64,000 nt of DNA from Candidatus Raymondbacteria bacterium RIFOXYA2_FULL_49_16 (GTDB taxonomy: Bacteria; Fibrobacterota; OXYB2-FULL-49-7; XYB2-FULL-49-35). Positions 18,084-26,861 of this stretch are shown in pieces. The stretch covers positions 1 through 64,000 of the forward strand of contig MFYT01000005.1 in assembly GCA_001789205.1 (NCBI GenBank). The letters are read 5' to 3'. The notes under the pieces are model-generated. The model was not told the DNA's origin. It was given only the letters and a program-made list of their open reading frames with translations, and did not search any database. A program made the translations under genes and the position numbers. Position 1 is the stretch's first letter. Every line of letters begins with the position of its first letter.

Positions 18084-18812
18084 TTATGCTTCTCCGAACG
18101 CGGTCAACTGGCCAATCATTGACCGGACAAACATTTCAAAACTTAAATCAGAAGCTGGCTCTGCAAATTCACCGTTTATTCCGTTGGTTTTTGATGAAAG
18201 AATAAACGATGACACTGAATAGTGTCTCTCACGGACGAGTTTTCTGCAAAAAAGTTCGTACCGTTTCGCGTATGATGCGCCACCGAATTCCGGAAACACC
18301 TTGAAATGTGGCTCCTGAACTTTAACCAAGCTGTTGGAGCGTTCACAGTCTTCGAGCATGAAAAAATATCCGAGCCAGGGTTTTATGGTTGCATTGAACG
18401 CGCCTTCCCGATATGCGGTCCAAAGATCAAGAGCGCTGCCCATGGCTTCTTCGGTTCGGTTGTTAAAATTGTTGCCAAAAGATGGTCCTACCTGGGATTT
18501 TGCTTCAAGAGCAAGCAGGCGTTGACCATTTTTCACCACAAGCAGATCCCACTCTTTAGTAGGACGAAAAAAACCTGGCAGCTGAAGGGAATGGTTGGAA
18601 TATATATTGGCTTTTGGAATACCTGCTTCCAGAATAATGTCAGATAAAAGATGAATTATACCATCCATCTGAGCGCCACCGGTCACAGCGCTACGAGCTC
18701 CCTGATCGCTGGCCCCTTGTTCTTTCTGTTTTTTCCCTTGAGCTGCCCGAGTTTGCCAGTAGAAAGCTATAGCTTTTTTTAGTTTGTCCTGTAAGTCATT
18801 GATGTTAAACAT
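18084..18812 (-). CDS. XhoI/PaeR7I-type restriction endonuclease
   Basis: 242 residues. The protein is close to PaeR7I as I recall it: GARSAVTGGAQMDGII, ELPG..RP..WDLLVV, KSQVGPSFGNNFNNRTEEA, EPHFKVFPEF and ASYAKRYE. PaeR7I and XhoI cut CTCGAG. The PD-ExK site looks intact (D89, then E103-A-K105). Only a methyltransferase fragment is adjacent, so this is an apparently active type II nuclease with no visible intact modification gene. At least six CTCGAG sites occur in this window. Protection must come from elsewhere, or the nuclease must be silent. Confidence 0.9.
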   Translation of the reverse strand: MFNINDLQDKLKKAIAFYWQTRAAQGKKQKEQGASDQGARSAVTGGAQMDGIIHLLSDIILEAGIPKANIYSNHSLQLPGFFRPTKEWDLLVVKNGQRLLALEAKSQVGPSFGNNFNNRTEEAMGSALDLWTAYREGAFNATIKPWLGYFFMLEDCERSNSLVKVQEPHFKVFPEFGGASYAKRYELFCRKLVRERHYSVSSFILSSKTNGINGEFAEPASDLSFEMFVRSMIGQLTAFGEA

Positions 18813-19054
18813 GCAACTACATCTCCTGTTTGAAAAATACCTTTAACCACAGCAAATATTCCACATTCATGGAGGCAAAATAAAAACGGTGTCCATACCT
18901 TTGTTTGCCTATTGATTTTGTTTTGATTCTTGAGGATCTAAGTTAAATATAACAGAAAAATATGACAAACCCTGTCACATGTAGAAAAAAACGAATTTCA
19001 CTTTTGCAGGTATTTTATGGGGTTGTTAGGAAAAAGCTGTTCTGCTTACGGGTT

Positions 19055-19207
19055 GCGCCATGCTGAAGTTGCCGCCTATAACATTGCAGAAGTATTGGGC
19101 TATCAAGCGGAGTCTACGGAGCTTGATAGAACGATACTTCTGCCTACCCCTAGTCCAAGCGGCAATTTGGGGCGGGGCTTTGACCGCCCAGCATGGGGCT
19201 GTTGTTT
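19055..19207 (-). repeat. attC-like imperfect palindrome, site 1 (closes the ankyrin block)
   Basis: Three nested stems: 19055-19065 with 19189-19199, 19066-19075 with 19159-19168, and an inner stem 19086-19108 with 19121-19143. GTTGTTT starts at 19201. The sequence beyond it (GCCGGGTAGCTG at 19214-19225) recurs inverted at the 5' edge of the ankyrin block near 20925-20944. The distal side has no clear RYYYAAC core and may be degraded. The rest of 18813-19381 is AT-rich and shows no convincing gene. Confidence 0.6.
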
Positions 19208-19381
19208 GTCTGTTGCCGGGTAGCTGTCTTCGCTTTCTTCTCGCGCGCATCCGTATTTTATTGTATTTTGGTAAAACGGTATCGAAAAAAATCATATTCT
19301 TCTGGAAACCGTGCTTCGCATGGATATGAAACCTATGCGCTCATCAAATAAAATGATTCGCGCATAGGCTAAGACGAACAA

Positions 19382-20764
19382 CTATTTACCCTTGCTTTCA
19401 AGATATTTCTGAATTTCTTTAAATCCGAGTTCCTTTGCATATTTCGAAGGGGAAAACTTGCCGCCAGCCATAAGACATGCCCCTTTTTCTGCCGAACCTT
19501 TACCCATTTTCCCAGTTCGAGCTTTCATTTCCATTTGATGATTCATCCAGAAATTATTTGCATCGGCAAGCATTTTGACCATTTCCATATTATTATTCTC
19601 GATTGCAAAATATATGGAAGATTTCTTTGAAAGGTCATATGCACAGCCATTGGGAGCAACGAAATAGCCGCTGATACCTTCAGTCTCCTTGCAGCCAGCG
19701 GCTAATAATGCCTTTGCGACCTCAAGATGATTGTATATTACAGCGTATGAAAGTGCGGTAAAGCCCTTTGCATACTGTCCAGTTGTATTATCCAGATCCC
19801 AGGTTTCATGGGTCACATCGGCACCACGCTCAATAAGAAGATTAACTAATGCTAAGTCCCCTCTTTTTGCAGCCAGCGAAAGTGCCGACTTTTTGTCCTT
19901 GGTCAGGTGGTTGACATCAGCTCCGGCTGCGACAATCGCTTTTGCCGCATCCAGCTTGCCGGAAACAAGAGCAACTAAAAGCGGTGTATAGTCAGATGCA
20001 TTCTTCTGGTTGATATCTACATTGGCGTTTTTCAATAATTCAAACATTTGCGCCGGTGTACCGTTAGCAGTAGCAGGTAAGTCAGCATACCAATCTGGTA
20101 CTTTCAATCCAAAGGATTCCATTGCCGGTTTACCATTTTTATATTGTGCTTTCCTTTCCTCCGCAGTCATTGAAAAAGCGGCAAAATTGTGCGCAAGATT
20201 CGAATTGTCGGCGGATGAGCTTTGGATTTTGGCTCCTTTTTCAAGAATTTTTTGCAGACAGGGCACACAATTGGTCTGCTGCACAGTTACCTGAATAGCT
20301 GTTACTTCGCTCGGTTTAGAATTTGCAAGCGCGCCTTCCCATGCTTTTATTGCTGCTTCGTTGGCTTTTTTACCTTTCGCTTTTTCAGCAGCTATGAGTG
20401 TCCTGAAGGTAGTCCCCGGATCAACCTTGCCAGGCTTATTGGGATCAGCGCCTTTCTGTAGCAGCATTTCAACAACATTTACGGAATATGAATTGCATGC
20501 TGATATCAGAGCTGGATAATTCCCTCCGTTAGGATCGGCTCCTTTATCGAGAAGTAACTGGACGATTTCAGGCCAGAAAAAAGCAGATGCTATAGGAGAA
20601 TTACCATCTGCGCCAATCTTATTTACATCAGCACCAGCATCAATTGTTTTTTTAACGGCTTCCAAATTACCCTGTTTGCAGGCTGATACCAAATCGGTGT
20701 TGGGGTCTGCAAATGAAATGCAGAAGAAGGTCGATACGAATAGAGCTATAATCGCTTGTTTCAC
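19382..20764 (-). CDS. Secreted ankyrin-repeat protein
   Basis: 460 residues, GTG start with AAAGGA upstream. A signal peptide (about 1-19, cleaved after SFA) is followed by ankyrin repeats in two groups. ADVNKIGADGNSPIA and PDPNGG-type units lie at ~30-130. YTPLLVALVSGKLDAAKAIV, KSALSLAAKRGDLALVNLLI and a TALSYAVIYNHLEVAKALL unit lie at ~255-360. A CxxC (NCVPCLQ) sits between them. Ankyrin repeats bind proteins, and the partner is unknown. It is alone between two attC-like palindromes and looks like a single-gene cassette. Confidence 0.82.
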   Translation of the reverse strand: MKQAIIALFVSTFFCISFADPNTDLVSACKQGNLEAVKKTIDAGADVNKIGADGNSPIASAFFWPEIVQLLLDKGADPNGGNYPALISACNSYSVNVVEMLLQKGADPNKPGKVDPGTTFRTLIAAEKAKGKKANEAAIKAWEGALANSKPSEVTAIQVTVQQTNCVPCLQKILEKGAKIQSSSADNSNLAHNFAAFSMTAEERKAQYKNGKPAMESFGLKVPDWYADLPATANGTPAQMFELLKNANVDINQKNASDYTPLLVALVSGKLDAAKAIVAAGADVNHLTKDKKSALSLAAKRGDLALVNLLIERGADVTHETWDLDNTTGQYAKGFTALSYAVIYNHLEVAKALLAAGCKETEGISGYFVAPNGCAYDLSKKSSIYFAIENNNMEMVKMLADANNFWMNHQMEMKARTGKMGKGSAEKGACLMAGGKFSPSKYAKELGFKEIQKYLESKGK

Positions 20765-20937
20765 AGTAGTTCCTTTCAGTTTCAGGATTAAAATTATTGG
20801 TCTACGGGTCTATTTTCTGTAAGAAAATATAACAATTGAGGGCTTCCTCCTTTCCTGTGGCCTTAAAGTTGGTGGTTTAGCTTTTCCATATTTTATTCTG
20901 CGCGCGAGTCTGGTATTTCTTTCAGCTACCCGGTAAT

Positions 20938-21059
20938 TGCAAACGTGTGCCGTGTTACGACGTGGCCAGCGTTAGAAAACGTGACGGAAATTTGCGACAC
21001 GTTTTATTCAGACGCTGGCCATGTGCGCGTTTCGCGCGAACGTAACGCGGCTGTTGGGT
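20938..21059 (-). repeat. attC-like imperfect palindrome, site 2 (closes the DinD block)
   Basis: Nested stems: GCCGTGTTACG (20949-20959) with CGTAACGCGGC (21041-21051), GGCCAGCGT (20964-20972) with ACGCTGGCC (21012-21020), and AAAACGTG (20976-20983) with CACGTTTT (20998-21005). An extra small hairpin is at 21025-21037. The core GTTGGGT at 21053-21059 fits the integron consensus GTTRRRY. The other end is TGCAAAC at 20938-20944. The rest of 20765-21125 is the AT-rich leader of the ankyrin gene. Confidence 0.72.
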
Positions 21060-21125
21060 GCATTTAGCTGGAATGCCACCATGTTTCAAATTCTTGTTTG
21101 CGCCGTTTTTTCTTGCACCGAATTT

Positions 21126-21980
21126 TTATTCATCCAGCATTAATTTATTCGGAGTTTTTTTAAGCTTTTTTAACTGTTCTCGTTCAACTTCACTGATATT
21201 TTTACTTGGAACAGGTAAATCTTCCGGCATTGTACCACCCACTCGCTCAATCGTTCCTCGTACTTCTTTCCCAACGATAAAGTGGATTTCATTAGCGGCA
21301 TCAGCGGTTGCCGCCTTATCTTTTTTTAATTTATCATCAGTCTGGGATATTCTAAACAAATTGGCAATTAATTCCGTACTACTCATATAATCAAGAATCC
21401 TGTCCTGTTTCTTCAGCCCCTTCTTTTTATGAATATCTTCGACCTTCAATCCGCCATACAGTCCCATATAACCGGCATTCTGAAAAGTCGCATACTCTTC
21501 ATTGCTGATGACACCTGCATTATGGGCGGATTCGGCAAGCATCTGGTTCCATTGCTTGATATCACCCCTAATGACCAGTCGTTTGTTGTCTTCATCAAGC
21601 TGATTAAAGTAGTCGGCGACTTCCTGTCGTCTTGTTTGAATTGCAAAATATGTTTGACCTAAGGCAATGACCTCTTTCCGTGGGTCTCCATTCTGAACGA
21701 TTAAATAACAAGCATAACGGGTGAGTTTAAAATCAGCAATGGGTTTTGAAGTAGCACCCGCTTCTACGATTTTGCTGACCTCAGCAAAATGGTCTTGAAG
21801 CGCATATCCACTATTCTTACAGGCAAGCATAGCCCTGTCTAAAACTTTTGCAAAATTCCGCCATTGTACATATTCAAGTACAGGCGCAAGCTCCCTGGCA
21901 TACCAGAATTCAGCGCCATCATCCGAAACATGTTTGATTGCTTCAAATGAAACGTATTCTTTTGCTTTTAAATTACTCAT
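21126..21980 (-). CDS. dinD: DNA-damage-inducible protein D
   Basis: 284 residues, full family length. EFWYARELAPVLEYVQWRNF is the BRO-N-like start typical of DinD, and the KNSGY..HF..V.K and ITRYACYLIVQNGDPRKE-type segments are conserved. E. coli DinD is SOS-induced and reported to act on RecA filaments. No LexA box was recognised upstream, where only 43 bp separate it from the next gene. It shares a cassette-like block with the 22024-22761 gene. Confidence 0.9.
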   Translation of the reverse strand: MSNLKAKEYVSFEAIKHVSDDGAEFWYARELAPVLEYVQWRNFAKVLDRAMLACKNSGYALQDHFAEVSKIVEAGATSKPIADFKLTRYACYLIVQNGDPRKEVIALGQTYFAIQTRRQEVADYFNQLDEDNKRLVIRGDIKQWNQMLAESAHNAGVISNEEYATFQNAGYMGLYGGLKVEDIHKKKGLKKQDRILDYMSSTELIANLFRISQTDDKLKKDKAATADAANEIHFIVGKEVRGTIERVGGTMPEDLPVPSKNISEVEREQLKKLKKTPNKLMLDE

Positions 21981-22023
21981 GCTGCCACCTTTTTAAAACA
22001 GGCATTCGTTTTAATGACCGTTA

Positions 22024-22761
22024 CTATTTAGTCAATATTTTAATAAAATCCCATAATGCACTGGCTATCAGATTTAATGCTATTGCAATTATTCCGGTTG
22101 TTAAAATTGAAAATAATGGATACTTTTTAATAAAAAGTTCAATTTGCAATATTTTTGGTTTACATATTTTTTTCAATTCACTTTCAAATACGGATATAAC
22201 ATCCTCTTCAATTTGTCTGGTTTTAAATTCTGCTTTACAAGAGTTGCATAAAATCGGTTTTTCCGTGTTATAAATTATATCTTGCTTATCACCATTTAAA
22301 TCAAAAAGGCACCCTCTTGTATCCCTGTGTACAAGCGAATAAACATCGTCGGTAGAAATAATTTTAAATAAACGCTTAATTGCGGATGCTTCATAAATTT
22401 GCTTTAAAATAAAGTTATCCGCAGAAATAAATTCTCTGGACAATAAGTCGGTAATTCCATGTAAGGAAACTACAACGCAATTTGATCCAATTCGGTGCAT
22501 GTAGAAATTGTCTATGAACCTATATGCCATTATTCCCATTGCTAAATCAGACTCAGAAGGGCATGTTATGAGATTTGAAAGTTGATCCTTTTCAAATTTC
22601 TGATCCAAATAATCATCATCAACTTTACATTCCGGTAAATGTTCAATCGTTTGAATATTAGTTATTTCGAATATTTTTAATTTCCACTTTTTGATTTTAT
22701 TTACATTAAATAAATTGTTCGCATGCCCTAAAAGTATTAAGGATATCTTCATTTTTTTCAT
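22024..22761 (-). CDS. Unknown protein with C-terminal transmembrane helix
   Basis: 245 residues, preceded by AAGGAC. The first ~200 residues are soluble and contain HRDTRGCLFDLNGDKQDI followed by a CNSC pair, which may be a metal or zinc-binding site. One hydrophobic helix near the C terminus (FSILTTGIIAIALNLIASAL) would anchor it in the inner membrane. I do not recognise the family. Its place beside dinD and among restriction genes makes a defence role possible, but that is inference. Confidence 0.7.
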   Translation of the reverse strand: MKKMKISLILLGHANNLFNVNKIKKWKLKIFEITNIQTIEHLPECKVDDDYLDQKFEKDQLSNLITCPSESDLAMGIMAYRFIDNFYMHRIGSNCVVVSLHGITDLLSREFISADNFILKQIYEASAIKRLFKIISTDDVYSLVHRDTRGCLFDLNGDKQDIIYNTEKPILCNSCKAEFKTRQIEEDVISVFESELKKICKPKILQIELFIKKYPLFSILTTGIIAIALNLIASALWDFIKILTK

Positions 22762-22857
22762 ATTTGTCCTTAAATTACCGCCATGTTGGCGGCTGATATT
22801 CTCTTGCGTGCAATGTTTTTAATAATTTTTATTGTCTTCGGCGCAAACCTATGAATT

Positions 22858-22886
22858 CCATTCATTCCGGCTTATTGCATCCCAAC
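22858..22886 (-). repeat. 5' edge of the DinD cassette-like block
   Basis: Read on the minus strand from 22886 the sequence is GTTGGGATGCAATAAGCC then GGAATG. On the plus strand from 21053 it is GTTGGGTGCATTTAGCT then GGAATG. These are the same sequence in inverted orientation with one indel and a few changes. A cassette's leading bases pairing with its own attC is the expected integron arrangement. Confidence 0.65.
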
Positions 22887-22974
22887 TATTGTATCGATGA
22901 ACATTTTGTATACCTTCCGGGGCATAAATACGAACATCCCCCTATCTTCTACGGCATGCAAAGCGAATACAATA

Positions 22975-23004
22975 AATGTACCTATTCCATGCCTGCTCTG
23001 TCAA
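22975..23004 (-). promoter_or_regulatory. Pc-like promoter reading into the DinD block (copy 1)
   Basis: Minus strand TTGACA (22999-23004), 18-bp spacer, TACATT (22975-22980), about 89 bp before the cassette edge at 22886. The -35 and spacer are conserved in copy 2. Confidence 0.6.
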
Positions 23005-23074
23005 TATTCCCGTTACTATTGTATCACTATTGCCACACAATTGTCGCCTTTGTTATGTTTTACCCGGTCATACA

Positions 23075-23280
23075 ATGCCAAACCTCAAATACTGCCGCAT
23101 AATCGCTGTCTGTGTCCTTTTTACCGGCTTTTTGCTTGCAGGGTGGGGCGCAAGCATGTCCGCTTTTTCAGGCTTTGCTAAAAACAGGTACGAACATTCA
23201 ACAGGAAAGTTTCTTCGTAAATTCTCGAACACGGACCAGACATACTACCATTCACTTGCCATTGTCTTGACAGTGGGAAA
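23075..23280 (+). pseudogene. Truncated copy of the small membrane protein gene at 26547
   Basis: It encodes MPNLKYCRIIAVCVLFTGFL and the KNRYEHSTGKFLR stretch shared with the intact gene at 26547-26861, then diverges after codon ~68. The frame runs on to a stop at 23326 through sequence that is antisense to rhuM. The second transmembrane helix and the downstream DUF486 gene are missing. Confidence 0.75.
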
Positions 23281-24300
23281 TTGTTTTACGGCCTTGTCAA
23301 AATCGCTTTCGAGCAAACGGTCTTGAATAACCCGGTATTTTTCGTACTCGCCTTCGGCGAATGACTTGGCTATTTCGACGCTCACTTTGCCCGGATTATC
23401 CAAAATTTCTTTTTCGTTGAATTTTAGGAACGCATCGAGTTTTTCAACCCAATCTTTCATAAACATTACCTTGCGGTCATTGGCCTGCATTTCGGCGTAA
23501 TCCAGATACATGGTAATAATACGGTTTAGGCCTTCCAGTTCTTTTTCGTTCAGGTAGTTCTTGGCAATACTCACATCGGCTTTTCGTATCTGACCTTTCG
23601 GAGCGTTTTTCCATGTGGAAAGGCCCATATTCTGTTTTTCACTGCTTGCCCTGCTGTAAATAATTTCCGCGGCAGTTTGGCGCGAAATTGCCCAGTGCAT
23701 TTTATTCTGCACCGTGGCAAAAAAGCGGTCTGTAGTTTCGCTATCAGGATCGTAATCAGCGCTGCACTGTGCGTATATGTCGGTGATTTTCTGGTAAAAA
23801 CGGCGCTCGCTTGAGCGTATATCCCGTATACGGGCAAGTTGTTCTTCGAAGTAGTCTTTGCCAAAAATGTTGTTCGGGTTTTTAAGCCGTTCATCATCCA
23901 TGGTAAAACCCTTGATGATGTATTCTTTAAGGCGCTCCGTTGCCCAGATACGAAAATGTGTTGCCCTTGTGGAATTGACCCGGTAACCGACAGAAATTAT
24001 TGCGTCAAGATTATAAAACTCTATGTTTCGTGTAATCTGCCTGCCACCTTCGGTTTGAACTTGTGCAATTTTTGCACAAGTTGCCGATCTCCGTAACTCC
24101 TTGCTATCGTATATGTTACGCAGGTGCTTTGTAATGACACTTCTTTCTACATCGAACAACTCAGCTATCTTTGCCTGGCTAAGCCATACGGTTTCGTTAT
24201 GCAAAAATATTTCAACCTTAACCTTGCCGTTAGGCGTAGTGTAGAGCAGAAATTCGGTGTAGGAATTGTTGGGAACTATCGCATTTTTCTTTTTAGGCAT
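23245..24300 (-). CDS. RhuM family protein
   Basis: 351 residues. The N terminus (FLLYTTPNGKVKVEIFLHNE, then VWLSQAKIAELFDVERSVIT) and YNLDAIISVGYRVNS match the RhuM (virulence RhuM) family, which is widespread in mobile DNA. It has a Fic/DNA-binding-like N-terminal region and no well-settled biochemical role. The start overlaps the stop of a small upstream gene (TAATG). The last ~12 codons (...TVKTMASEW) lie inside the duplicated module, antisense to its membrane-protein gene. The normal C terminus and any attC of this block were therefore probably lost at a recombination joint near 23280. Confidence 0.88.
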   Translation of the reverse strand: MPKKKNAIVPNNSYTEFLLYTTPNGKVKVEIFLHNETVWLSQAKIAELFDVERSVITKHLRNIYDSKELRRSATCAKIAQVQTEGGRQITRNIEFYNLDAIISVGYRVNSTRATHFRIWATERLKEYIIKGFTMDDERLKNPNNIFGKDYFEEQLARIRDIRSSERRFYQKITDIYAQCSADYDPDSETTDRFFATVQNKMHWAISRQTAAEIIYSRASSEKQNMGLSTWKNAPKGQIRKADVSIAKNYLNEKELEGLNRIITMYLDYAEMQANDRKVMFMKDWVEKLDAFLKFNEKEILDNPGKVSVEIAKSFAEGEYEKYRVIQDRLLESDFDKAVKQFPTVKTMASEW

Positions 24301-24479
24301 TAGGGAACCACCAAGTTTTTTGCTTCATCTTTTTCAGCTTCAAAACGAGATTGCAGACTATCGAATGTCTTTTCATTTCTGATTTTTATCGGTTCATACC
24401 AATATTTATTATCTCTTTTGCCTTTGTAGAAGCACAAATAAGTCTCGTTAATAAAGTTATCTTCAGCGGCAATAAGCAT
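24300..24479 (-). CDS. Small protein upstream of and coupled to RhuM
   Basis: 59 residues from the ATG at 24479, which has AAAGG about 8 bases upstream. A start at 24503 would lack a ribosome site. The protein (MLIAAEDNFINETYLCFYKG and a charged C terminus) has no recognised family. Its stop overlaps the rhuM start by one base, so the two are translationally coupled and likely act together, possibly as an antidote and effector pair (inference). Confidence 0.6.
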   Translation of the reverse strand: MLIAAEDNFINETYLCFYKGKRDNKYWYEPIKIRNEKTFDSLQSRFEAEKDEAKNLVVP

Positions 24480-24610
24480 AAAATAGCCTTTTCTGAATAC
24501 CATTTAGAATGGTTTTCGTATTCAGGCACCCCCCAATTTATTTTCATTTCTCTTTTTAGAAATCGGTTTTACGCCACTGCTCAATTGCATTTGAAAACGT
24601 GCAGCATTTA

Positions 24611-24718
24611 CACCAACGGCCCGGGCATACAAGACGTTTTGCTGTAGGCTTTGCGGAAGCAAAATGTGCCGCAGGCCAAGGGAGGCTTTGCGACCGTCGC
24701 TTGTATGCCCTGTTAGCG
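24611..24718 (-). repeat. attC-like imperfect palindrome, site 3 (closes the Mrr block)
   Basis: Outer arms: CACCAAC (24611-24617) with GTTAGCG (24712-24718), and GGGCATACAAG (24623-24633) with CTTGTATGCCC (24700-24710). An inner stem pairs ACGTTTTGCT (24634-24643) with AGCAAAATGT (24658-24667). Flanking TTTACA/TGTAAA extends the symmetry. The length of 108 bp fits an attC site. The remaining part of 24504-24868 is AT-rich and no gene is seen in it. Confidence 0.72.
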
Positions 24719-24868
24719 GCTGTAAATATGAACGCTACCATAGTGTAATTGTTTTCCGCCGCCTCTTCGTCTTTTTGTTTTCTGTCTTCATGGTGCACAT
24801 TTCTTCAGCGCATGGATGCGCTATTTACATCTATTCTTCAGTCTCGCATAGTCGTTGTAATTTACAGA

Positions 24869-25288
24869 TCACTTTTTATTGTTAATGAATTTATAAAAAT
24901 TACGACAGGTCGAATCATAAGCGGTAATATATCTCTGTTGGGTAAATTCATTCGGGTCCCAACAATGAGGTATTGGCCCTCCTGATTCATCAAGGTAGTC
25001 TAATAGTATTTTTTTCGCTGGCCACGTTCTTTGATTTTCATTTTCATGAATTCTTCTTATAATTTCCGAACCAAAAACGCCTAAATTTGACATGTATTTT
25101 TTTATTGTGCTTCTTGCCAATTTATTGCCTACCAAAAATTCGATAAATGGGATAAATTCAAGAAGAATTCTATTTCCTAAATCAATATCTTCTTTAAACC
25201 CCATCCAATGCTGAGGCCATTCATAAAAGTCCTCAAAATAAAGCAATGGTATTTTATTTATTGATGAACCACTTTTATCTATCGACAT
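24869..25288 (-). CDS. Unknown protein in the Mrr block
   Basis: 139 residues with no signal peptide or membrane helix. There is an aromatic-rich start (YFEDFYEWPQHWMGF), a central helix with ARSTIKKYMSNLGVFGSEII, and a C-terminal WDPNEFTQQRYITAYDST. I do not recognise it. It is 31 bp downstream of mrr on the same strand and directly upstream of attC-like site 3, so it travels with mrr in one block. Confidence 0.6.
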   Translation of the reverse strand: MSIDKSGSSINKIPLLYFEDFYEWPQHWMGFKEDIDLGNRILLEFIPFIEFLVGNKLARSTIKKYMSNLGVFGSEIIRRIHENENQRTWPAKKILLDYLDESGGPIPHCWDPNEFTQQRYITAYDSTCRNFYKFINNKK

Positions 25289-25319
25289 ATTTTTAATTCT
25301 TATTTCAGTTCTGTGTCGC

Positions 25320-26225
25320 TTATTCTTCAGTAAAATAATCAGAATCTATTTTGTTAATATCATAAGTTGTAACTGTTGATACCCCAACCTTATTGTCAAT
25401 CATTAAGTTTGCCAGTAATTCACCATCAATTAAAATGATTTTACTCTCAATTCTTGAAACGTAATCTATAGCATCCTTGGAATAATTCGAGGTTGTAATA
25501 AATATTCCTTTTTTTGCATGATGAAGTTGTAATGCGCCGGCAAATTTCTGAATTTCAGGTCGTCCGACACAACCTTCCCACCTTTTTGCTTGAATGTAAA
25601 GAATATCAAGGCCTAATTTGTCTTCTTTGATAATTCCATCAATTCCTCCATCTCCACTTTTACCTATAGCTTCACCAGCGTCTTTTCTTGAACCACCATA
25701 ACCCATTTTTACCAAGAGTTCAATAACAAGTCTTTCAAAGAAAGTCGGGGAACAACTTTTAATGTTCTGAATAATTTCGTTTGCTAAATTTGATTTCAAT
25801 CTCAAATAAGCAGATTCAATAGACTCCTCTGGAGTTTCAGAAGTTGTCTCAACTGCAACAGGTTCTTCTTTATCCTCTTTTCGAACATTTTGAAATTCAA
25901 GGAATTCCGGAAATTGTCGTAGAAATGACGCATCAATTTTTTCCGGCTTTTTTGATAAAATATTCATTCCTCTTTCAGTAATCTGAAAAAAACCTCGCCT
26001 GACAGGTTCAAGTAATAGAGCTTTTTTTAGGTAGGTTCTTGCCCATCCGACTCTATTCTCAAATATCGGCTGGCTACCGCTGGGAAGTAATTGTTTCTTA
26101 TCATCATCATTGAGTTCAAATTTCAATTCCAAATGCTCGATAGTTTCCCGAAGCGAATGTTCTTTTTTATCCGCCAAAAATTGAAGAAGTGGGAGCATTA
26201 TTGATTGATAATCCGGTATTGCCAT
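25320..26225 (-). CDS. mrr: Mrr-type restriction endonuclease
   Basis: 301 residues. The N-terminal half is the winged-helix Mrr_N-like domain (about 1-95). The C-terminal half is the PD-(D/E)xK nuclease, with GGIDGII containing D196 and YIQAKRW with Q212-A-K214, the usual Mrr catalytic layout. Mrr enzymes cut DNA carrying methylated bases. It is the first gene after the copy 2 promoter module, so it would be the best-expressed cassette gene. Confidence 0.92.
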   Translation of the reverse strand: MAIPDYQSIMLPLLQFLADKKEHSLRETIEHLELKFELNDDDKKQLLPSGSQPIFENRVGWARTYLKKALLLEPVRRGFFQITERGMNILSKKPEKIDASFLRQFPEFLEFQNVRKEDKEEPVAVETTSETPEESIESAYLRLKSNLANEIIQNIKSCSPTFFERLVIELLVKMGYGGSRKDAGEAIGKSGDGGIDGIIKEDKLGLDILYIQAKRWEGCVGRPEIQKFAGALQLHHAKKGIFITTSNYSKDAIDYVSRIESKIILIDGELLANLMIDNKVGVSTVTTYDINKIDSDYFTEE

Positions 26226-26339
26226 AAATTTCCTCTCATCATTTCTTCGCCACCTGGACGGTGGCTTGTTTTCTCTTGTGCGCCATTCTTATTTGTTTTA
26301 ACTCTATTTTTGTCTTTGGCGGCGGCTATCAGTCTTATT

Positions 26340-26362
26340 CGTTCATATTTATTGCCGCTAAC
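26340..26362 (-). repeat. 5' edge of the Mrr cassette-like block
   Basis: Minus strand from 26362 reads GTTAGCGGC-AA-TAAATATGAACG. The plus strand from 24712 reads GTTAGCGGC-TG-TAAATATGAACG. That is 21 of 23 positions inverted between the two ends of one block, the expected pairing of a cassette start with its own attC. The region 26226-26339 between this edge and mrr holds a hairpin (GCCACC-5-GGTGGC, about 26250-26266) and no gene. Confidence 0.68.
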
Positions 26363-26753
26363 TAGTGTATTTATGAACATTTCGCATCTTCCTATGCATA
26401 AACCCGCCCCCCCTCTCCTGCCTGACATGCAAGCTGAACACACTAAAAGTACCTATTCCATACCTACCCTGTCAACATTCCCGTTCCTGTTTTTATCACT
26501 ATTGCTGCATAGCTGCCGCCTTTGTTATGTTTTACCCGGTCATACAATGCCAAACCTCAAATACTGCCGCCCAATAGCTGTCTGCGTTCTTATTGCCGGG
26601 CTTTTACTTGCCGGCTGGGGCGCAAGCATGTCCGCCTTTTCAGATTTTGCCAAAAACAGATACGAACATTCTACAGGAAAATTCCTCCGCTCTGTCTCGC
26701 GCAAAGACCAGACATATTACCGTTCACTCGCCATTGTTTCAGCTGCGGGAAAA
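26363..26753 (-). repeat. Duplicated leader/promoter module, copy 2 (intact)
   Basis: Homologous to 22887-23280. From the cassette edge rightwards it holds the conserved TGTAT..ATGAACATTT segment, a minus-strand promoter and most of the plus-strand membrane-protein gene. Here the gene is complete and followed by its partner. Confidence 0.8.
26446..26475 (-). promoter_or_regulatory. Pc-like promoter reading into the Mrr block (copy 2)
   Basis: Minus strand TTGACA (26470-26475), 18-bp spacer, TACTTT (26446-26451), about 84 bp before the cassette edge at 26362. It corresponds to the copy 1 promoter. Confidence 0.6.
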
Positions 26754-26861
26754 GCCATGTCAAGCATTGGCCTGCTCGTCATTCTTACGGGAATATGCTG
26801 CATGGTACGACCCGCGCTCATTACTAGGTTCATTAACCCCAACAAGGACATCCACGTATGA
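26547..26861 (+). CDS. Small two-helix membrane protein
   Basis: 104 residues from the ATG at 26547, the point where protein-level similarity to copy 1 begins. Helices lie at ~9-30 and ~70-90, with a conserved charged loop (FAKNRYEHSTGKFLRSV) between them. The family is not recognised. The stop overlaps the start of the DUF486 gene (ATGA), so the pair is coupled. The frame is open further upstream, but that part covers the promoter module. Confidence 0.65.
   Translation: MPNLKYCRPIAVCVLIAGLLLAGWGASMSAFSDFAKNRYEHSTGKFLRSVSRKDQTYYRSLAIVSAAGKAMSSIGLLVILTGICCMVRPALITRFINPNKDIHV

Follow-up and report, generated by a model that had tools for sequence, protein, structure and literature searches.

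Gene cassettes of a probable integron-like class with a non-IntI recombinase in Candidatus Raymondbacteria

The 64,000 nucleotides analysed here (the window) are from contig MFYT01000005.1 (C5) of Candidatus Raymondbacteria bacterium RIFOXYA2_FULL_49_16 (Fibrobacterota), whose 5.4-Mb genome is assembled in 112 contigs (G000), and they carry on the minus strand two arrays of genes bounded by palindromes that resemble the attC sites of integrons. These arrays are very probably composed of gene cassettes that belong to an integron-like class having att sites and an integrase of its own, the latter a tyrosine recombinase for which the working name IntX is used, and the mechanism is deduced from sequence comparison. 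The architecture of the sites, the boundaries of the cassettes, their association with IntX, the sharing of cassettes between genomes and an empty site were all observed. As far as its sequences tell, the system works like an integron, yet it falls outside the integrase criterion, since IntI is recognised by its specific domain (PMC9668308, PMC2426708) and this domain is missing from IntX.

Two cassette arrays on the minus strand

A preliminary description of the window, made from its letters, had placed three minus-strand blocks there, named after their Mrr, DinD and ankyrin genes, and the geometry assigned to them was found again: each block starts at a GTT, closes with a palindrome and has an edge complementary to the sequence outside that palindrome. 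The junctions lie at 26362, 24617, 22886 and 20944 (GTT) and at 19049 (a degenerate GTA), within about 6 nt of the boundaries first placed. A fourth block with a RhuM gene (24617 to about 23245), which has no palindrome of its own, had been overlooked, and the gene labelled DinD is assigned by Pfam to the Bro-N family. Furthermore, the blocks do not form the single array that was initially described, as the left flank of the Mrr block (26362-26752) reappears, truncated and 80% identical, at 22886-23280 ahead of the Bro-N block; there are therefore two arrays, both beginning at the same attI-like sequence. Read along the minus strand, array 1 consists of the attI-like site, the Mrr cassette and the RhuM block, and array 2 of the attI-like site, the Bro-N cassette, the ankyrin cassette, a flank beginning with GTAAGCAG and an XhoI-type gene.

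Starting at 26362, the Mrr edge GTTAGCGGCAATAAATATGAACG agrees at 21 of 23 positions with the reverse complement of what lies beyond its own palindrome, as originally noted and as recovered by a repeat search, and none of 1000 Markov shuffles reached this match. The edges of the DinD and ankyrin blocks, likewise said to be repeated inverted, match the flanks of their own palindromes by local alignment once a slight offset or an indel is allowed, with scores that 0/200 and 1/200 shuffles reached, respectively; ungapped, they match at 16 of 23 positions each, which was reached in 13 and 22 of 1000 shuffles. When the features of the cassette system, AAC-A-stem..stem-N5-GTT and extended pairing of the cassette's own edge, are looked for together, the Mrr block shows both, the DinD block shows them weakly and the ankyrin block in degenerate form. 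The central spacers of the window attC sites are 1/5 and 1/4. A scan of the window with Rfam at gathering thresholds gave no match, a simple attC finder tuned to classical spacers did not pick up the window sites, and the genomes compared included no close relative for a strain comparison of the window.

The att platform and intX in the same genome

The attI-like left flank occurs in four copies in the genome, of which two are in the window and the others on contigs C11 and C70. They share a TTGACA box and a conserved region that ends in ACACTA/G or a close variant (the slash marks the junction). The right flank beginning with GTAAGCAG occurs in five copies, each immediately behind an attC or attI junction. 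One empty site is present: on C11 the left flank of array 2 (22885-22967 in the window, 95% identical) is joined exactly to the right flank of array 2.

The right flank carries the operator ATGTGACAGGTTTTGTCACAT or a near variant, which is probably an SOS box because the same operator is also placed 60 nt before recA. This probable SOS box was seen upstream of recA, the intX copies, the XhoI gene and IS91-type transposase genes (L118 = C64:27204; L064, L078, L079, L120; window 18956-18980).

On C11 the right flank runs into the N-terminus of a tyrosine recombinase, IntX. The end of C109 is 100% identical over 93 bp to this right-flank/IntX start and continues with the rest of the IntX gene, which has one in-frame TAG, and an intact IntX relative with the same operator is found on C26. 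In other loci intX precedes attI and the array, and the right flank is therefore best taken as the beginning of another intX unit; on the same grounds the C11 copy is no longer regarded as an end of a 'reversed' integron. As part of the best explanation, the two arrays of the window would occupy attI copies whose integrase has been lost. Two repeats were seen beside these elements. A 121-bp tandem repeat directly follows the intact IntX gene on C26, near the contig end (L064 16385-16638), and on C70 the two attC junctions around a Bro-N gene carry a repeat of 240 bp (97%; L077 9056-9295 and 10705-10944), which looks like a deleted intX unit that has been duplicated.

The IntX recombinase

No integrase is encoded in the window, as first reported, and the search of the whole genome for IntI (TIGR02249) gave no match above the cut-off. 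The IntX of C26 contains Phage_integrase and a SAM-like domain, with HARP below the cut-off, and its closest solved structure is VchIntIA (2a3v), which aligns on either side of residues 180-238, a stretch missing from IntX. The 41-residue IntI-specific domain is absent from IntX, and the distance between the conserved boxes is 58-63 residues in those IntX in which it is measurable, whereas it is 98-100 in IntI. IntX scores 188-228 with TIGR02249 (cut-off 265; IntI1 scores 506) and 196-238 with NF040815 (cut-off 220), a model for which NCBI gives the product as 'site-specific tyrosine recombinase/integron integrase'. In a tree rooted at the midpoint only, IntI forms a single clade (100/100) and IntX a grade between Xer and IntI. 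IntI integrases themselves were found in 14 of 168 Fibrobacterota genomes, with two in the only genome of the same order and some next to attC arrays (L027-L044).

IntX-linked arrays in many phyla

A search with the IntX alignment yielded 80 loci in many phyla; the same contig search with the single C26 protein as query gave no matches. The contig ends less than 3 kb downstream of IntX in 43 of the 80 loci and upstream in 17, a bias that repeats located behind the gene would produce. Counts of the motif AAC-N(0-3)-stem..stem-N(3-6)-GT were 51 downstream on the IntX strand against 14, 11 and 7 elsewhere. Per 10 kb, the region downstream of IntX has 1.46 motifs on the strand of the gene and 0.40 on the opposite one, and the upstream region has 0.11-0.18. 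The sites linked to IntX have the form RYYYAAC-A-stem…stem-N5-GTTRRRY, in arrays running in the same direction as IntX and attI; the spacers are 1 and 5 in 45 of 53 sites, and AAC and GTT are invariant in an alignment of 38. Such arrays were found in Bacteroidota, Bacillota, Nitrospirota and archaea.

The attI lies mostly 72-190 nt after the IntX stop and is the GTT that best matches the first attC, behind a short inverted repeat and 5-6 nt; in about half of the loci this match is at least 12/13, with 0/200 shuffles. Candidates far from the IntX stop either belong to later cassettes that follow missed sites or are due to chance.

That complementarity at the cassette edge extends past the 7-bp core had been singled out as unusual in the window, and it proved to be real and characteristic of the system. 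In 36 cassettes of IntX loci, pairing of the edge with the cassette's own attC reached 5.64 of 6 at positions 4-9 (2.69 when permuted) and 5.33 of 14 at positions 12-25 (3.50 when permuted), each with 0/20,000 permutations, where part of the sites was picked by the same motif or model and edge positions 8 onward lie outside the motif. The pattern is a match at 1-10, a fixed mismatch at 11 and a match at 12-15. It was missing from the IntI arrays tested: 10 IntI cassettes paired above permutations only at 4-9, with 4.0 against 3.6 at positions 12-25.

In another genome (G029, contig C224; L116 2700-5270), a unit of a recombinase and an IS91-type transposase stands in cassette position, and its own edge GTTGAACAAAGCCGC pairs with the closing palindrome.

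A hold-out model of IntX-linked attC sites

A search with an attC covariance model had been suggested as a check. The model R1 was built from 38 IntX-linked attC sites with Fibrobacterota left out, and on the 64-kb window it gave a single match, the Mrr palindrome with exact boundaries (24611-24718, minus strand; 32.5 bits, E=3.4e-5). On 33 sources, among them a class 1 integron and Fibrobacterota IntI arrays, R1 found no match beyond that of the window. With the filters off, the Bro-N site was the second-best in 18.9-27.0 kb, with exact ends (10.2 bits, E=0.36, weak alone), the ankyrin site went unrecognised even then, and two sites of G029 were the sole matches in their loci. On 61 held-out IntX loci, 50 of the 53 matches lay downstream on the IntX strand.

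Across whole genomes, R1 detected at least 50 sites in Flavobacterium difficile (G168), mostly in one array of about 30 kb, at least 75 in Halanaerobacter jeridensis (G171), at least 36 in F. silvisoli, and at least 17 and at least 8 in two further genomes. The cultured strains F. difficile and H. jeridensis hold sets of IntX-type sites the size of superintegrons. Matches were also found in at least 10 of the 168 Fibrobacterota genomes, and in one of these (G154) the site lies downstream of IntX on the same contig and in the same direction.

Cassettes in varied contexts and tet(X)

A cassette of F. difficile is also present in a second Flavobacterium with 86% identity; the homology extends from AAC/GTTGTATGC to the next GTT, and a different attC stands on the left of the cassette in the second species. 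On a plasmid of Empedobacter brevis (NZ_CP043637.1; L252 3116-4442), tet(X2) lies between two R1 matches (E=3.2e-8 and 1.5e-4) and has an edge match of 11/11. The GTT of this cassette is also the point from which it is homologous to the region around tet(X3) on Acinetobacter plasmids. By these features tet(X2) is an IntX-type cassette. In Acinetobacter, tet(X3) is found at an inverted-repeat attI 171 nt behind the IntX relative xerD/tpnF, which is 52% identical to the IntX of F. difficile. Like tet(X3), tet(X5) was seen at the attI that belongs to an IntX relative with the annotation xerD/tpnF (plasmid pHH1107, L251 6028-8120; L249). A Chryseobacterium plasmid carries IntX and several sites. 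Cassettes that end in attC, point in one direction, have exact G/TT boundaries and occur in varied contexts, as expected of an integron, were thus found in the Flavobacterium cassette, the tet(X2)/tet(X3) pair and the empty site on C11.

Features of the window

The features of the two arrays are collected in Table 1. Divergent from array 1 lies a small membrane-protein-like gene (26546-26861), in the position that intI has in classical integrons, and a truncated copy of this gene adjoins array 2.

Table 1. Positions of the arrays, cassettes and flanking features in the window
Feature	Position	Strand	Basis and remarks
attI-like site, array 1	26362..26480	-	TTGACA promoter-like box facing the cassettes; junction ACACTA/GTTAGC; kept in 4 genome copies
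Cassette 1: Mrr type IV restriction enzyme, 139-aa open reading frame (ORF), attC	24618..26362	-	Edge GTTAGCGGC.. against own R'' 21/23; PADLOC mREase_IV
Mrr-family restriction endonuclease gene	25320..26225	-	Pfam PF14338 (Mrr_N) and PF04471 (Mrr_cat)
139-aa ORF in cassette 1, function unassigned	24869..25288	-	ORF list, Pfam scan
attC of Mrr cassette	24611..24718	-	CGCTAAC-A-GGGCATACAAG..CTTGTATGCCC-GGGCC/GTTGGTG; covariance model R1, 32.5 bits, E=3.4e-5
Partial cassette 2: RhuM-family gene (23245-24300), without 3' end and attC	23245..24617	-	PF13310; runs into duplicated flank
attI-like site of array 2 and truncated duplicate of flank 26362-26752	22886..23280	-	80% identity
Cassette 3: 245-aa ORF (22024-22761), Bro-N protein (21126-21980), attC	20945..22886	-	Pfam; PADLOC PDC-S13
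attC of cassette 3	20938..21059	-	CACCCAAC-A-GCCGCGTTACG..CGTAACACGGC-ACAC/GTTTGCA; fold; model 10.2 bits, E=0.36
Cassette 4: ankyrin-repeat protein (19382-20764), attC	19050..20944	-	PF12796; edge match via local alignment, 1/200 shuffles
Degenerate attC of cassette 4	19049..19207	-	..AAC-A-GCCCCATGCTG..ACTTC-AGCATGGCGC-AACCC/GTAAGCA; from sequence and fold; unrecognised by model
Right flank GTAAGCAG.. with SOS-like box ATGTGACAGGGTTTGTCATAT	18944..19049	-	Five genome copies
XhoI-type restriction endonuclease gene, downstream of SOS-like box	18084..18812	-	PF04555, 303 bits

Proposed mechanism and alternative explanations

In the mechanism that we infer, the enzyme would be IntX, a tyrosine recombinase that belongs to the IntI/Xer group, does not have the domain specific to IntI and often carries an N-terminal HARP-like domain, and it would be expressed from its own promoter, which in this genome carries the putative SOS box and may therefore be under SOS control. 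The substrate would be single-stranded: once the cassette is circular, at least its first 15 bases would pair with the sequence outside the palindrome (1-10, mismatch at 11, 12-15). The result would be a long outer recombinase arm beside an asymmetric unpaired spacer of 1 nt and 5 nt, and an inner stem some 11 bp long. The folded attC would then be recombined by IntX with attI, presumably a double-stranded inverted-repeat site just downstream of intX, and as the joining would take place at G/TT, the cassettes would line up one way behind attI.

Several results weigh against assigning the window to this class. Significant recognition by R1 is limited to the Mrr attC, with the DinD site weak and the ankyrin site not recognised, so that the window locus looks partly decayed, and the search of the whole genome (G000) with R1 gave a weak chance-level site alone, the window's own being absent among the matches listed. 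No intact integrase adjoins the attI copies of this genome, the intact IntX of C26 has no attC behind the gene before the contig end, and the IntX of C109, with its in-frame TAG, is tied to the platform by contig overlap alone. Moreover, given the IntI integrons in 14 of 168 Fibrobacterota genomes, an IntI origin of some sites is possible.

The best surviving alternative, which we regard as unlikely, is an ordinary cluster of attC sites lacking an integrase (CALIN), in which the cassettes would be the decayed remains of a classical IntI integron and the genome would have lost the integrase itself. CALINs are common (PMC9024848), IntI integrons with attC arrays occur in the phylum and even in the genome of the same order, and the RYYYAAC/GTTRRRY core boxes are common to both kinds of site. 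In contrast, the unpaired spacers of 1/5 differ from the 2/2 or 3/3 seen by eye in IntI sites of the phylum and from the 5/5 central spacers of Vibrio cholerae repeats (VCR; PMC2727003), extended edge pairing is absent from IntI arrays, and the att flank continues into the IntX gene. Furthermore, the model of IntX-linked sites matches the window and no IntI array, in a test that used R1 and not the attC model of IntegronFinder. The preliminary description had left the choice between a CALIN and a distant relative of integrons; the match of a foreign model at the exact ends of the Mrr palindrome, the empty attI copy and the same architecture beside non-IntI recombinases in many phyla favour the latter. 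Of the outcomes that had been named there as speaking against the idea, none was seen, apart from the ankyrin site going unrecognised by the model.

It is highly improbable that the blocks are rolling-circle units like IS91/ISCR or Helitrons, non-autonomous, ending in a hairpin and inserted beside GTT. The IS91-type transposase genes with the same SOS-like box in the genome and the transposase unit in a cassette-like position in G029 would fit such units, but Pfam finds no HUH/Y1 transposase domain in the window blocks, and rolling-circle movement leaves the pairing of each edge with its own palindrome and the conserved attI beside IntX unexplained. Least credible of all is that the palindromes between the defence genes arose by chance or are unrelated elements such as terminators or dispersed repeats. 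The modest ungapped ankyrin and DinD matches would fit this, but not the Mrr match (0/1000 shuffles), the exact boundaries found by the foreign model or the empty site. Terminal inverted repeats of a transposon were rejected, as the ends differ per block and there is no transposase, and so were Xer dif modules, whose architecture is different as read, with no dif search run.

Significance and comparison with known systems

Surveys have found integrons almost only in Gammaproteobacteria and called their rarity in some large clades 'intriguing', with one complete integron each in Bacteroidetes proper and in Firmicutes in the survey with IntegronFinder 2 (PMC9024848). A full-text search found no IntX-like arrays in the literature, preprints and subscription papers being outside its reach. 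On balance we lean towards the view that IntX integrons are a widespread class apart from IntI (Bacteroidota, Bacillota, Nitrospirota, Atribacterota, Fibrobacterota and archaea), that IntI integrons arose within this grade through a single gain of the IntI-specific domain, and that tet(X) tigecycline resistance reached pathogens as an IntX cassette. Bacteroidota and Bacillota are among the clades in which integrons seemed rare, and here they hold long cassette arrays whose neighbouring recombinase is one that searches based on IntI are built to reject; a large overlooked reservoir of mobile genes thereby becomes searchable. The findings are also relevant to the origin of IntI, and they offer a testable role for the 'xerD' beside tet(X), which the literature had left without one (PMC7473080).

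With the IntI integrons (class 1, Vibrio superintegron; TIGR02249), the IntX-type system shares a tyrosine recombinase, an attI that in the IntX loci stands beside the integrase, a unidirectional array of mostly single-gene cassettes, palindromic attC sites with RYYYAAC/GTTRRRY cores (CGCTAAC..GTTGGTG in the Mrr site), the G/TT junction and an SOS-type operator. It differs from them in that IntX is without the IntI-specific domain, that the attC spacers are 1/5 instead of about 5/5, that the outer arm is at least 15 nt with a fixed mismatch at 11, and that the integrase is directed toward the array, with attI following its 3' end. Like a CALIN, the window holds several attC-like sites and no IntI, whereas the partner here appears to be a non-IntI recombinase that adjoins arrays in other genomes. 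XerA, XerC and XerD (NF040815, TIGR02224, TIGR02225) belong to the same fold family and also have no IntI-specific domain; however, Xer proteins act on dif sites for chromosome dimers, while IntX precedes cassette arrays. Finally, the 'xerD-tet(X3)-res-ISCR2' unit of Acinetobacter plasmids (PMC8635130) has so far been described as driven by ISCR2, although its xerD/tpnF is an IntX relative and its tet(X3) starts at the attI junction.

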